Shown here one piece after another: positions 44,995-53,430 of a stretch of DNA of 64,000 bases. The stretch is from Bifidobacterium breve (GTDB lineage Bacteria > Actinomycetota > Actinomycetes > Nanopelagicales > Nanopelagicaceae). Position 1 is the stretch's first letter, and each line of letters starts with the position of its first letter. The notes beneath the pieces were generated by a model. It did no database searches. It saw nothing but the letters and a program-made list of their open reading frames with translations, and had not been told where the DNA came from. The DNA lies in NCBI GenBank assembly GCA_945885625.1, contig CAMCYS010000007.1, forward strand, positions 1 to 64,000, written 5' to 3'. The position numbers and the translations under genes are program-made.

Positions 44995-46320
44995 CTAACA
45001 ACCTTTCGGCTTTGGCTTTACTTTACATATCGCAGTCAGTTTCTTACTCGCAACAGTAAGTGATGACTGCAGAGATTTAATCTTTGTATTCAGGGCTGCT
45101 ACTTCATTCCGAAGCGTGCTTGCTGAGTTCTCAGCAGCCAACTTTGCCTCATCAGCCAATTTAGCTTTCAACTCTGCTTCTATAGAGAGCTTGAGAGTGG
45201 TGGCGGCATCTGAATCGGACTTGACCTTAGCTTCACGTGCTAATTGAGCGTCTGAATCTGATTTTTCCTTCGCCTCTAAGGCTAACTTTGCTTCAGAATC
45301 TGATTTTTCCTTCGCCTCTAAGGCTAACTTTGCTTCAGAGTCTGATTTCGATTGATTTTCCAAAGCTGCTCTTGTGGCTAATTCTGCTTTTGCTAGGGAT
45401 TCTTTTGCGTTTTTAAGATCAGTATCAGATTGCAGTAGAGCAGAATCGCTTTTATTACTTGCTTCAACGGCTGAAGCGAAAGCCAAGTTTGCATATTTAG
45501 TAATTAAAGTTACCAATGTGTAGTAATTACCACTGAACTTAAGGCTGCACTCAGGACCAACTGTCGCATTTGCGCCACCAGTAATTACGCCAACTAAGTA
45601 AAGTTTCGTTAATGTACTCACGATTACTGGGCCACCGCTATCGCCTGAACAAGCACTCGATGTAGGACTTTTTAGGTAGACAGAATTCTTAAGAGTTGTT
45701 GGCTTAAAATCAAAATTCATTGTTGTTGTTTTTGGCTTAAGAGACATATCCCCCTCAAAAACCGTCAGTCCATAGCCATAAATTCTTACCGCAGATTTGT
45801 TTGCAATAAATGACTCAGTTTCTTCATCTGAAGCGATCGTAATGTTTGATGTGAGCACAAGTGCCTTCTCCAAAACAATAAACGCAACATCGTTATCTAC
45901 CACAATATCGCTAGAAGAATAATAAGTAGAGGTTACTTTTATCGATGATGCTTTATATTGTTCATAGATCGCACGACTTTCAGCTGCATCGTTTGTGTTT
46001 TCTAGAATTCTGCCACCGACCTTGCCATCTACTGTGAGAATCTTGAAGGAAGCTCCAGCAGGTGCAACCCATACGTTCTTTGCAAGTAAACCAGTTTCAT
46101 CTTCTGTTACACAGTGCGCAGCTGTAACAACTATACGTGGAGCGACTAGAGCGCCCGAGCAGCTCGCATAACGCTTGCCATCGGAATATTCCTTTATTAC
46201 GCTCACCACATTCGGTGTGCCAACAGCATCGACGCCGTTATAGATTGCAAAAACAGGCGCAATAGGCAGAAGGAGAGTTGAAAGCAGAACAAGTACAAGT
46301 GTTTTGACAATGAGCTTCAT
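44995..46320 (-). CDS. Secreted trypsin-like serine protease with coiled-coil tail
   Basis: This 441-residue protein begins with a Sec signal peptide (KTLVLVLLSTLLLPIAPVFA, cleavage after about residue 25). A chymotrypsin-fold (S1) domain follows, with the triad His in VVTAAHCVTEDE, Asp in DNDVAFIVLE and Ser in CSGDSGGPVIV. From about residue 285 an Ala/Lys/Glu/Ser-rich heptad-like coiled coil contains tandem copies of a 14-residue unit (KSDSEAKLALEAKE). A C-terminal Lys-rich end with two cysteines (AICKVKPKPKGC) closes the protein. It is probably released or tethered outside the cell. TAGCCT 6 bases before ATG 46320 suggests a leaderless mRNA. The substrate is unknown. Confidence 0.88.
   Translation of the reverse strand: MKLIVKTLVLVLLSTLLLPIAPVFAIYNGVDAVGTPNVVSVIKEYSDGKRYASCSGALVAPRIVVTAAHCVTEDETGLLAKNVWVAPAGASFKILTVDGKVGGRILENTNDAAESRAIYEQYKASSIKVTSTYYSSSDIVVDNDVAFIVLEKALVLTSNITIASDEETESFIANKSAVRIYGYGLTVFEGDMSLKPKTTTMNFDFKPTTLKNSVYLKSPTSSACSGDSGGPVIVSTLTKLYLVGVITGGANATVGPECSLKFSGNYYTLVTLITKYANLAFASAVEASNKSDSALLQSDTDLKNAKESLAKAELATRAALENQSKSDSEAKLALEAKEKSDSEAKLALEAKEKSDSDAQLAREAKVKSDSDAATTLKLSIEAELKAKLADEAKLAAENSASTLRNEVAALNTKIKSLQSSLTVASKKLTAICKVKPKPKGC
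45255..45338 (-). repeat. 42-bp in-frame tandem repeat in the protease gene
   Basis: Two identical 42-bp copies (45255-45296 and 45297-45338) encode the 14-residue coiled-coil unit. A partly degenerate third copy follows on the higher-coordinate side (45339 on), and related units lie at lower coordinates. The nucleotide identity points to recent duplication by slippage or recombination and to length variation among strains. Confidence 0.85.
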
Positions 46321-49420: not shown

Positions 49421-49503
49421 CCGTTCTCGCTAAGGTTACGGTCGTGTAAGCGTCCGTGTGAACGTTGGGGCTTCCGACAGAACTATCAGAATTGGAGAGC
49501 GCT

Positions 49504-50790
49504 ATGGCAAAAAGTCTAACCCTCCTTACTCTAGGTAGGTCAGCCTTGCTCTTTCTTGCTCTGCTCATATTTCCAGTTCTTCTCTCATCTCCCGCGCAGG
49601 CAGAGACTCCTACAAAACTTTATGGCGTCATTACCAACTCAGAAGGTGAGCCGCTCTCAGATATTGGAATTTCAATTCTTGGTCCAGATGGATTTTCTTC
49701 TCAAGCCGCCACCAACGAGCAAGGTTTGTGGGAAGTACCGATTCTCTCCAAAGGTAGCTACAGCATCACAATTAACGTGGACGATTTACCAGAGGGACAA
49801 GCCTTAACTAATCCGGATAAGGGCACTGTAAAAGCAAATGTCTTTATGCTCGGAGTCGATCTCCGAATCCTCTTTCCGATCGGACCAGGCGTAGTTCAAT
49901 CCTCACTACTCGAGCGCTCTGCGCAACTCACTCTCGATGGAATTCTCTTAGGATTGGTTATCGCGTTAGCTGCACTAGGCCTAAGTCTTATCTTTGGAAC
50001 GACAGGTTTAACTAATTTTGCACATGGTGAGATTCTCACATTGGCAGGACTATTGACCTATTACTTGAGCGCCATAGTCGGCCTACCGGTCTTGGCTGCA
50101 GCCCCTCTGGCGGTATTACTTGGTGCTCTAATTTCTGGATTCCTGCAGGATAAATACTTATGGAAACCACTTCGTAGACGTGGCACTGGTCTTATTGCAA
50201 TGCTCGTGATTTCAATTGGCTTAGCGATATTTCTTCGATACTTCTTCCTCTTTATATTCGGTGGCGATACTCGTCAATTGCCACAATATGCCGGACAAGC
50301 AGGTATTGAGTTAGGTTTGTTAAGTTTCACTCCTAAATCGATTCTTACGACGGTCATTGGAATTCTTTTAATCCTGGGCGCAACTCTCTGGCTGCTTCGT
50401 ACGCGAATGGGTAAGGCTAGTCGCGCCGTTGCGGATAACCCCGCTCTGGCTTCAGCCTCAGGAATCGATGTGCAAAAGGTAATCCGCGCAGTGTGGATAC
50501 TTGGCGCGACCCTTGCTAGTTATGCCGGAGTTGTTGTGACTATTAATCAAGGTGTCAGCTTCTTGATGGGGCAGGATATGTTACTTCTTATTTTCGCAGC
50601 AGTGACACTGGGTGGTTTAGGAACTGCCAATGGCGCACTTGTTGGATCACTCATTATTGGTCTCTTTGTCCAGCTCTCAACGCTTTTTATACCTACCGAA
50701 CTCAAGTATGTTGGCGCTCTTATAGTTCTGATCCTTATTCTCATCATCAGACCACAAGGAATTTTGGGCAAAAAAGAGAGGATTGGGTAA
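49504..50790 (+). CDS. livH: Branched-chain amino acid ABC permease LivH with extracytoplasmic N-terminal domain
   Basis: LivH is one of the two membrane subunits of the high-affinity branched-chain amino acid importer. The 428-residue product is longer than the usual roughly 300. A signal peptide (residues 1-33, ending SSPAQA) precedes a beta-rich domain (about 34-120, with LYGVITNSEGEPLSDIGISI and ATNEQGLWEVP) that looks like a carboxypeptidase-regulatory/Cna-B-type sandwich. The permease follows (from about 135, with IFGTTGLTNFAHGEILTLAG). ATG 49504 has GGAGAG upstream; the frame extends to TTG/ATG-like codons with no support. The extra domain faces outside and might touch LivK (inference). 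Confidence 0.9.
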   Translation: MAKSLTLLTLGRSALLFLALLIFPVLLSSPAQAETPTKLYGVITNSEGEPLSDIGISILGPDGFSSQAATNEQGLWEVPILSKGSYSITINVDDLPEGQALTNPDKGTVKANVFMLGVDLRILFPIGPGVVQSSLLERSAQLTLDGILLGLVIALAALGLSLIFGTTGLTNFAHGEILTLAGLLTYYLSAIVGLPVLAAAPLAVLLGALISGFLQDKYLWKPLRRRGTGLIAMLVISIGLAIFLRYFFLFIFGGDTRQLPQYAGQAGIELGLLSFTPKSILTTVIGILLILGATLWLLRTRMGKASRAVADNPALASASGIDVQKVIRAVWILGATLASYAGVVVTINQGVSFLMGQDMLLLIFAAVTLGGLGTANGALVGSLIIGLFVQLSTLFIPTELKYVGALIVLILILIIRPQGILGKKERIG

Positions 50791-51786
50791 ATGGACTTCC
50801 TCTTTATAACCCAACAAACTTTAAGTGCAACTATCGGAGTGAACACGATTATCTTTGCGCTCGCCGCTATCGGATTAAATATGCACTTTGGCTACACAGG
50901 ATTGCTCAATTTTGGTCAGGCAGGCTTTCTAGCAATTGGGGCATATAGCGTTGCAGTTCCGGTGATTTCCTTTGGATTACCCCTTTGGGTGGCATTCCTA
51001 ATCGGAATATTCAATTCCGTAATTTTCGCGCTACTACTTGGCGTGCCAACTCTTCGTCTACGCGCTGATTATCTTGCCATCGTAACGATTGCTGCAGCAG
51101 AGATAGTTCGCCAGATCGCGCGCTCCGCAACCTTTAACTCAACGTTGGGCGGATCCGATGGAATCACCGGAAAATTTGGCGCTGACTTCTTCGCACTCAA
51201 TCCATTCAAGTCTGGGATAGATACTCCGATCCTTCGTTTTAATGCGAACGATCTCTGGGTCGTCATCACTGGTTGGTCACTTGTCGCTTTCATTGTATTT
51301 ATCATGTGGGTTATGGTGAATTCACCTTGGGGTCGTCTGATGCGAGCAATTCGTGAAGATGAAGATGCGGTCAGATCGCTAGGTAAGAATGTCTACCTCT
51401 ATAAAATGCAATCTCTTATCATCGGTGGCGTAATTGGTACATGTGGTGGCTTTGTCTACGCGCTTTCCCGTCAATCAGTACAACCTGATAATTACGGAAC
51501 GGCGCTGACGTTCTTCGCCTATACGGTCTTAATTCTTGGTGGCGCAGCCCGCGTTTTCTCCCCTGTAATTGGCGCCATGATCTTCTGGTTTTTGATTGTC
51601 TTCATCGAACAGGTGCTCCGTCAAGGTGTTTCAAATAATCTGATCCCCGATTGGCTTATTGGTGCAAATCAGGTGAGCCAGATTCGATTTATGCTGATGG
51701 GACTCGGCCTAATGCTCTTGATGATCTACCGGCCGCAAGGAATTTTTGGCGACCGGAAGGAGTTGGCTCTTGATGCAAAGGCATAG
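50791..51786 (+). CDS. livM: Branched-chain amino acid ABC permease LivM
   Basis: LivM is the second membrane subunit of the importer. The 331-residue protein has about eight to ten helices and the family signatures NMHFGYTGLLNFGQAGFLAIG and SPWGRLMRAIREDEDAVRSLGKN, which contacts the ATPase. The start follows the livH stop without a gap (TAA then ATG). It overlaps livG by 14 bp. Confidence 0.95.
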   Translation: MDFLFITQQTLSATIGVNTIIFALAAIGLNMHFGYTGLLNFGQAGFLAIGAYSVAVPVISFGLPLWVAFLIGIFNSVIFALLLGVPTLRLRADYLAIVTIAAAEIVRQIARSATFNSTLGGSDGITGKFGADFFALNPFKSGIDTPILRFNANDLWVVITGWSLVAFIVFIMWVMVNSPWGRLMRAIREDEDAVRSLGKNVYLYKMQSLIIGGVIGTCGGFVYALSRQSVQPDNYGTALTFFAYTVLILGGAARVFSPVIGAMIFWFLIVFIEQVLRQGVSNNLIPDWLIGANQVSQIRFMLMGLGLMLLMIYRPQGIFGDRKELALDAKA

Positions 51787-52633
51787 TGGAAGTGGAAGTG
51801 ATTTCGTTGAAGTCACAGCGCAAACTCCTGGTTCGGCAAAGCCAGATCCAATTTTAATTGCAGACCACATCACTCGTACCTTCGGGGGACTCACCGCTGT
51901 CAACGTTGCCCATCTTGAGATCCAGCGAGGTTCGATCACCGCGCTTATTGGTCCAAACGGTGCCGGCAAGACGACATTTTTCAATCTGCTAACTGGCTAT
52001 GACTCCCCTAACTCCGGGAGCTGGAGTTTTAATGAGATAGCGCTTAACGGAATTCCGCCACACAAGGTTGCCAGATTGGGCATGGTGCGCACCTTTCAAT
52101 TGACAAAAGCGCTCTATCGATTGACCGTTTTAGAGAATATGGCTCTTGGTGCGCGCGGACAAAAAGGTGAGTCTCTATTTACCTCTCTCTTCCCTTGGCT
52201 CTGGCGGGCTCAGGAGAAAGAGATTACAGAGAAAGCGCTCTCTATTTTGACTAACTTTAAATTGATTGAGAAGAAGGATGACTTTGCCGCAGCCCTCTCG
52301 GGCGGTCAGCGAAAGTTACTTGAGATGGCGCGAGCTCTTATGGTTGAGCCTGAGATGGTGATGCTCGATGAACCGATGGCGGGAGTTAACCCTGCCCTTA
52401 AGCAATCCCTCTTAGAACATATCAAAGATTTGCGCAATGAAGGTAAGACTGTGCTCTTTGTTGAACATGACATGGATATGGTTCGAGAGATCAGTGATTG
52501 GGTTGTCGTTATGTCACAAGGTGAAGTAATTGCAGAAGGAACGCCGACATCGGTAATGAAAAATGAGCAGGTAATCGAGGCTTACCTCGGAGCGCATCAC
52601 GATGTTGATCTCTCGGCAGAGGGCAAGAAGTAA
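51773..52633 (+). CDS. livG: Branched-chain amino acid ABC ATPase LivG
   Basis: LivG is one of two cytoplasmic ATPases of the transporter. The 286-residue protein has an unusual 30-residue N-terminal extension (MQRHSGSGSDFVEVTAQTPG). Walker A GPNGAGKTTFFNLLTGY, signature LSGGQRKLLEMARAL, Walker B VMLDEPMAGVNP and FVEHDMDMV follow. ATG 51773 has AAGGAG 10 bases upstream. It overlaps livM by 14 bp and livF by one base. Confidence 0.94.
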   Translation: MQRHSGSGSDFVEVTAQTPGSAKPDPILIADHITRTFGGLTAVNVAHLEIQRGSITALIGPNGAGKTTFFNLLTGYDSPNSGSWSFNEIALNGIPPHKVARLGMVRTFQLTKALYRLTVLENMALGARGQKGESLFTSLFPWLWRAQEKEITEKALSILTNFKLIEKKDDFAAALSGGQRKLLEMARALMVEPEMVMLDEPMAGVNPALKQSLLEHIKDLRNEGKTVLFVEHDMDMVREISDWVVVMSQGEVIAEGTPTSVMKNEQVIEAYLGAHHDVDLSAEGKK

Positions 52634-53385
52634 TGATGAACTCAATAGTTACGCCAGCTAATACGACTGAAAAATTAGTCGAAGCCAAGAACTTGATAGC
52701 GGGCTACCTCCCTGGGATTAACATCCTTAATGGCTGCAATTTATACGCCACCCAAGGGGAGCTGGTTGGAATTATCGGCCCCAATGGCGCTGGAAAATCT
52801 ACTCTTCTTAAAGCTCTCTTTGGCCTGGTCAAGGTTAGGGAAGGATCAGTCACTCTTCGGGGTGAGGAGATCACGAATATGCGCGCAGATGAACTAGTTG
52901 GGCGTGGCATCGGCTTTGTTCCACAAAGTAATAACGTTTTCCCTTCATTGACTATCGAAGAGAACCTTCAGATGGGTGCATTTCAGTCACCCTCCTTGTT
53001 TGCCGAAAGATTTGATTTTGTAACCGAGCTATTCCCCACACTTGGTACTCGGCGCAAGCAACGTGCTGGCTCTCTCTCCGGCGGTGAACGACAGATGGTG
53101 GCGATGGGACGTGCGCTGATGATGAACCCGTCAGTTCTTCTCCTCGATGAACCAAGCGCCGGATTGTCTCCTGCTCTACAAGATGAGGTATTTGTTCGCG
53201 TTCGTGAAATTAATGAAATTGGCGTTACGGTAATTATGGTTGAGCAAAATGCGAGACGCTGCCTGCAGATTGTTGATCGGGGTTATGTCTTAGATCAAGG
53301 TACGAATGCATATGAGGGAACGGGCAAATCACTCTCAACAGATCCAAAAGTTATCGAACTCTACCTAGGAACTCTGGCACGCTAA
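52633..53385 (+). CDS. livF: Branched-chain amino acid ABC ATPase LivF
   Basis: LivF is the second ATPase. The 250-residue product has GPNGAGKSTLLKALFGLV, the LivF-typical FVPQSNNVFPSLTIEENL, LSGGERQMVAMGRALM and LLLDEPSAGLSP. It starts as TAATG at the livG stop and ends just before the strong hairpin terminator at 53403-53424. No separate binding protein is encoded on this strand; livK faces it. Confidence 0.95.
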   Translation: MMNSIVTPANTTEKLVEAKNLIAGYLPGINILNGCNLYATQGELVGIIGPNGAGKSTLLKALFGLVKVREGSVTLRGEEITNMRADELVGRGIGFVPQSNNVFPSLTIEENLQMGAFQSPSLFAERFDFVTELFPTLGTRRKQRAGSLSGGERQMVAMGRALMMNPSVLLLDEPSAGLSPALQDEVFVRVREINEIGVTVIMVEQNARRCLQIVDRGYVLDQGTNAYEGTGKSLSTDPKVIELYLGTLAR

Positions 53386-53396
53386 TATTTTCATAG

Positions 53397-53430
53397 AAAA
53401 AAGGCCCCCGGAGATCCGGGGGCCTTTTCT
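53397..53430. terminator. Bidirectional intrinsic terminator livF / livK
   Basis: A perfect 10-bp GC-rich stem GGCCCCCGGA / TCCGGGGGCC (53403-53424) is flanked by six A's on the left and a T4 run on the right. It can stop transcription from livF (plus) and from livK (minus). It is the clearest intrinsic terminator in the window. Confidence 0.92.

Follow-up and report, generated by a model that had tools for sequence, protein, structure and literature searches.

The window, by which we mean the whole stretch of 64,000 nucleotides that was analysed, contains the genes of a Liv-type importer in the order livH-livM-livG-livF on the forward strand, with livK opposite them on the other strand. livH is a 428-residue open reading frame (49504-50790, +) with no internal stop in its translation, and GGAGAG (49494-49499) is found shortly 5' of its ATG. 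It is directly followed by livM, encoding the partner permease (50791-51786, +), and then by the genes of the ATPases, livG with ABC_tran and BCA_ABC_TP_C matches (51773-52633, +, the ATG at 51773 being read from the sequence) and livF (52633-53385, +). As the sequence-only reading of this DNA had stated, livK is encoded separately and convergently (53447 to about 54670, -), and its product is a lipoprotein-type substrate-binding protein with an LAGC lipobox. The gap between livF and livK holds a GC-rich symmetrical hairpin with runs of A and T on its flanks (53398-53429, read by eye), which is likely to be a two-way terminator. These genes were assigned from the open reading frame list and Pfam, and the Pfam scan of LivM, LivG, LivF and LivK revealed no extra domain of note. 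Elsewhere in the window, a secreted trypsin-like protease (44995-46320, -) was seen by eye to have a long Lys/Glu/Ala-rich tail of repeated KEKSDSEAKLALEA units.

The transmembrane part of LivH (residues 135-428 and the stop, 49906-50790) matches PF02653 over residues 144-413 (E 1.8e-35, 122.8 bits against a cut-off of 26.8), covering profile positions 3-269 of 269. The scores against the NCBIfam models for LivH (PRK10740; 107.7 of the 379 bits needed) and UrtB (119 of 250.3 bits) remained below the curated cut-offs. Since neither equivalog was reached, the substrate of this LivH can be assigned only from its family; the protein is a wider-family member outside both equivalogs, for which urea or other amino acids are possible substrates. 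In the window's own genome, a further locus (L007, G000:C3:73967-75715) has an open frame of 906 residues holding two consecutive PF02653 matches, perhaps a fused permease pair.

Ahead of the transmembrane part, LivH carries a signal peptide, a folded domain and a tether, the first two of which had been recognized in the sequence-only reading. Residues 1-33 (49504-49602) resemble a signal peptide by eye, with the likely cut between AQA and ET, and have low pLDDT. Hydrophobic N-terminal starts are also found in LivH relatives, with Ala 31 kept in 61 and Ala 33 in 60 of 69 aligned rows, and we infer that the signal peptide is cut. Residues 36-128 (49609-49887) form a prealbumin/Cna-B-like beta-sandwich. 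In the AlphaFold2 model of full-length LivH (69 aligned sequences, mean pLDDT 89.0) residues 1-30 are low, while residues 41-130 have block means of 87-97 and consist almost entirely of strands. Modelling of the domain alone (61 sequences), which had been proposed as a check on the first reading, again gave a folded sandwich with a mean pLDDT of 94.6. An extra membrane helix or a disordered segment in place of the domain, the result that by the first reading would have refuted it, is ruled out by both models. Foldseek and VIA-align 2 group the domain with SdrD B1 (10ps; Z 11.6, rmsd 2.5, 94 aligned) and also with the TIE protein, UafA, pilins, transthyretin-like proteins and carboxypeptidase D (Z 9.4 for 3mn8 and 9.3 for 1qmu), and the full-length model gives the same neighbours.

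The carboxypeptidase-regulatory or Cna-B-like character claimed for the domain from its letters therefore holds for the fold as well as for the sequence pattern, both of the originally quoted motifs being present in the translation. PF13620 (CarboxypepD_reg) matches residues 39-93 with E 2.2e-5 (25.2 bits) in the whole protein and E 2e-6 (28.5-28.8 bits) in the isolated domain, in both cases below the curated cut-off of 32.3 bits. At E <= 0.01, PF13620 matches LivH alone within the window's genome and was detected in all 61 domain-bearing rows searched, the window included (best relative E 2.4e-11). Taken with the predicted fold, this regularity means that the match is more than chance. Among solved structures, the best match by sequence profile is to a beta-sandwich in NOMO2 (E 1.1e-11). 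NOMO2 is a eukaryotic membrane-protein biogenesis subunit, and the match denotes fold kinship only; likewise, the shared prealbumin/Cna-B-like fold in itself shows no function. The solved domains of this type among the matches listed belong to surface adhesins, pilins, carboxypeptidases and similar proteins, whereas here the domain forms the N-terminal part of a permease in an importer. The structure-match lists contained no further importer permease bearing such a domain, an absence that carries no weight. The conserved positions of the domain are Gly 41, 74 and 84, Tyr 86, Asp/Asn 91, Leu-Pro 95-96 and core aliphatics. Since most of these are fold residues (Gly, Tyr/Trp and an LP.G loop), they outline neither a binding face nor a visible active site. 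In isopeptide-forming Cna-B domains a Lys and an Asn are conserved as a pair, together with a Glu or Asp. The LivH domain differs from them in having no such Lys/Asn pair: across 81 sequences no Lys, Asn, Glu or Cys column exceeds half, and Asp does so at two sites only.

By computation, this domain lies outside the membrane. No solved relative of the transmembrane part was found by sequence search; by structure, residues 130-417 of the LivH model align to residues 40-324 of BtuC (1l7v; Z 16.4, rmsd 4.4, 249 aligned). The first helix of BtuC is N-terminal and starts inside, and since this helix has no counterpart in the LivH model, LivH begins outside. The charge distribution across 81 sequences follows the same orientation, with mean K+R of 3.8 in the TM3-4 loop, 3.8 in the TM5-6 loop and 3.9 in the C terminus, and of 0 to 1.2 in the remaining loops and the stretch before TM1. 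Helix 1 thus runs from outside to inside, which places the domain outside, as the first reading had supposed, and tethered at the start of that helix. An outside N terminus also accommodates a signal peptide and an outer domain without any further helix.

The domain is not peculiar to the window. Among the matches listed for the first set of 60 genomes, a full-length match was found in 12, the window's own included, and the remaining LivH matches, bar one partial match, begin no earlier than query residue 126. Ordinary LivH proteins, in those matches, begin at about query residue 126-146 and have neither signal peptide nor domain, so that the domain is indeed missing from canonical LivH, as had been claimed; what they share with the window's protein is the PF02653 transmembrane part, the livHMGF operon and livK alongside. 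Within the genus the full-length match is patchy among the matches listed (5 of 37 genomes, many assemblies being incomplete). In a survey of the phylum, 60 of 396 genomes matched LivH at E <= 1e-60, and 54 of these have the domain, judged by a query start at or before residue 95 or, for one genome (G430), by inspection; in two of the 54 (G261 and G360) the match covers only the last part of the domain, where their contigs begin. One match cut by a contig end (G125) was left unclassified, and five lack the domain, namely G184 and four members of family f39 (G083, G208, G326 and G069). In the class, 110 of 296 genomes matched at E <= 1e-55, with 84 matches starting at residue 63 or before and 26 at residue 127 or after. 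Reading the late-starting matches as domain-less LivH was refuted for 25 of the 26 when the fetched sequences were inspected: a domain HMM built from 81 aligned LivH proteins found the domain in all of them, the sole exception being G184. The domain is therefore widespread in one clade (109 of its 110 members in the class). In family f19, only one of 81 genomes has a LivH of the domain type, and this is the domain-less G184.

The best 80 of the larger number of loci found all have the domain and a signal-like start, and the named carriers include Nonomuraea, Arthrobacter, Glycomyces, Actinoplanes, Cryobacterium, Aeromicrobium and Planktophila. The domain is found on independent contigs of many genomes, which rules out both a misplaced start codon and a chimeric assembly as its source. 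The domain-bearing LivH is an old, widely kept variant across Actinomycetota, and is neither an artefact nor specific to the window. It was not reported in the literature searched, in which subscription journals were partly covered. Two unannotated records of a plasmid collection also match. Five records (L040, L041, L045, L046 and L095) are titled Bifidobacterium breve, Fonsibacter or Rubrivirga while their LivH is nearest to that of the window or of Nanopelagicales type, and these are probably bins that bear a wrong label or mix several organisms.

A branch with 100/97 support separates 78 domain-bearing sequences and G184 from the rest of a tree built on 100 LivH transmembrane parts (L021 is absent, its cut piece being too short). 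Four domain-less f39 sequences adjoin this clade, although that fork is weak (84/14) and the wider placement is uncertain because of long branches in other parts of the tree. Domain presence requires two changes on the tree, the simplest account being one gain and one loss, and this suggests that the domain was gained once and lost once. Median dN/dS was 0.356 for the signal peptide, 0.276 for the domain and 0.177 for the transmembrane part, as estimated from 150 non-independent pairs of LivH genes 75-97% identical, of which 105, 128 and 126, respectively, were usable. By this measure the domain is under purifying selection. In G184 a signal-peptide-like start stands directly before helix 1, which fits the outside start of the protein. 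The LivK start at the same locus (L147, 4090-8870) has no good lipobox, reading VIAVC followed by a type I-like AQA site; in this one case only, the domain and the lipid anchor of LivK may both have been lost.

While the domain is always single, no protein having two by HMM, the segment that joins it to the membrane varies freely. In the window this tether is short (residues 129-134, 49888-49905), helix 1 starting at residue 135. Counted from the end of the domain to the TM1 motif it spans 18-63 residues (median 21) in the 155 proteins with both placed. This count omits 31 of 189 proteins, which had no TM1 motif match, and some of the 189 are overlapping loci that share a gene. Counted by alignment columns, the linker has 6 to 49 residues in 81 sequences. 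Long tethers have a high content of Gly, Glu, Ala, Ser, Pro and Asp, and are acidic in some lineages. Tandem domains had been considered for the longer LivH proteins of up to about 550 residues and were refuted; the extra length is tether and, in some, also inserts near the early helices. Some LivH proteins of family f17 (L198, L200 and L201) were seen by eye to have, in addition to a long tether, several tens of inserted residues between the early transmembrane helices.

In the 80 loci, the livH-M-G-F order is kept wherever the contig extends, and livK is mostly downstream and convergent, the exceptions being L101, L103 and L117, in which it lies upstream on the same strand. A lipobox was found in 52 of 67 LivK proteins, many of the others being cut by contig ends. 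We compared the divergence of the domain with that of its potential partners in a mirror-tree analysis of 47 of the 58 complete loci, near-copies having been removed. Given the LivG/LivF distance, the partial correlation of domain distance was 0.33 with the transmembrane part, 0.26 with LivM and 0.23 with LivK; the mean distance was 1.45 for the domain against 0.61 for the transmembrane part. No correlation was observed between the length of the tether and that of the LivK anchor (rho 0.13, p 0.49, n 32), in a rough test, since the automatic choice of lipobox was mistaken in a few rows where the start of LivK had been set wrongly (L109 and L093, for example).

We propose, tentatively and with rather more doubt than conviction, that the domain is a putative accessory module tethered at the outer face of LivHM, where it docks or retains LivK. 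It hangs outside the membrane from the start of helix 1, and so placed could raise the local encounter with, or the retention of, the lipid-anchored LivK. The nearest working parallel is the P2 domain of MalF (PMC3150292 and PMC8134467), which touches the binding protein MalE, as described in PMC3150292. The two systems share an extra outer domain on an importer permease. MalF-P2 is inserted between helices in a type I importer, whereas the LivH domain is N-terminal behind a signal peptide and has a tether of free length, and the transmembrane part best matches BtuC-like structures. The effect could be akin to that of MalF-P2 on MalE; however, since the tether is free to differ in length whereas the domain is retained, invariably as a single copy, the domain would act as a movable module and not as a fixed, rigid cap. 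In GlnPQ and OpuA the binding protein is fused to the permease, so that what hangs on the tether is the substrate-binding domain; the window's importer resembles these in having an outer domain tethered to the permease and differs in that LivK is separate.

The outside location, the single copy and the variable leash together suggest an accessory module near LivK. In favour of docking are also the position of livK beside the operon in most loci, mostly with a lipobox, and the retention of the domain by selection that is evident from its near-universal presence in the class and its low dN/dS. Against it are the mirror-tree result, in which the domain tracks LivK no better than it tracks the transmembrane part or LivM, the failure of tether length to follow LivK anchor length, the lack of a binding face among the conserved residues, and the existence of the sister family f39 without the domain. 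Ordinary LivH, moreover, functions with a lipoprotein LivK without any such domain. The suggestion in the sequence-only reading that the domain might dock LivK is thus plausible, though the mirror-tree signal is weak and the tether test gave none, and the evidence does not single out LivK as the partner. The main rival is a role in biogenesis or stability, in which the signal peptide and outer domain aid the insertion, folding or protection of LivH or its pairing with LivM, with no contact with LivK during transport. We consider this fairly unlikely, although it would account for the slightly better tracking of the transmembrane part and LivM (small differences, drawn from 47 loci), would tolerate tethers of varying length, and is in keeping with the NOMO2 match, fold kinship as that is. 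G184 has lost the domain yet keeps the signal peptide, so entry by signal peptide may itself matter; ordinary LivH, however, manages without the domain here too.

The same reading had offered fixation of the transporter to the cell wall, and a related possibility is that the domain attaches to peptidoglycan or to some other surface protein and so positions the importer in the zone of the wall. The fold is indeed typical of Gram-positive surface proteins such as SdrD, UafA and pilins, but Pfam found no other extracytoplasmic domain in LivH, no sortase-type motif was found in it by eye, and the lack of conserved isopeptide-type columns described above also speaks against attachment, so that fixation to the wall was not borne out and envelope contact in general seems improbable. 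It is about as hard to regard the domain as a nearly dispensable passenger under weak selection: its rate of evolution is roughly double that of the transmembrane part and it has been lost at least once, but that is a single loss in 110 class carriers of the domain-type LivH, and its dN/dS is well under 1. Least probable, in our view, is a ligand-sensing or gating lid that would bind a small molecule or cover the channel mouth to tune transport. In the AlphaFold2 model the domain connects directly to helix 1 on the outer face, and transthyretin, which has the same fold (Z about 9.5), binds ligands; conserved polar pocket residues were, however, not found in the alignment, and the long flexible tethers of some lineages are ill-suited to a lid.

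Returning to docking of LivK, a broader form of the proposal, which we regard as doubtful, is that one Actinomycetota clade of Liv importers uses a permanently tethered, non-substrate-binding capture module, Cna-B/prealbumin-like and on a leash of free length, to keep lipid-anchored LivK at the importer. If true, such an importer would stand midway between those with free binding proteins and those with a fused binding domain. A widespread outer permease domain in one clade, with one known domain-less lineage, makes a natural case for the question of how importers and binding proteins meet. Branched-chain amino-acid importers belong to the transporters with above-median expression in freshwater acI actinobacteria, according to PMC5574706.

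In the 80 loci, the operon often has polA, pdtaR and pyk as neighbours. In G054 (L158, 1636-16413) the polA-pdtaR-pyk slot is occupied by an ordinary livKHMGF operon on a single strand; this genome lacks a domain-type LivH, and its own LivH is 31% identical, with no domain found. The slot therefore hosts two unlike liv operons, the ordinary one in G054 and, in many other genomes, the domain-bearing one with a convergent livK.
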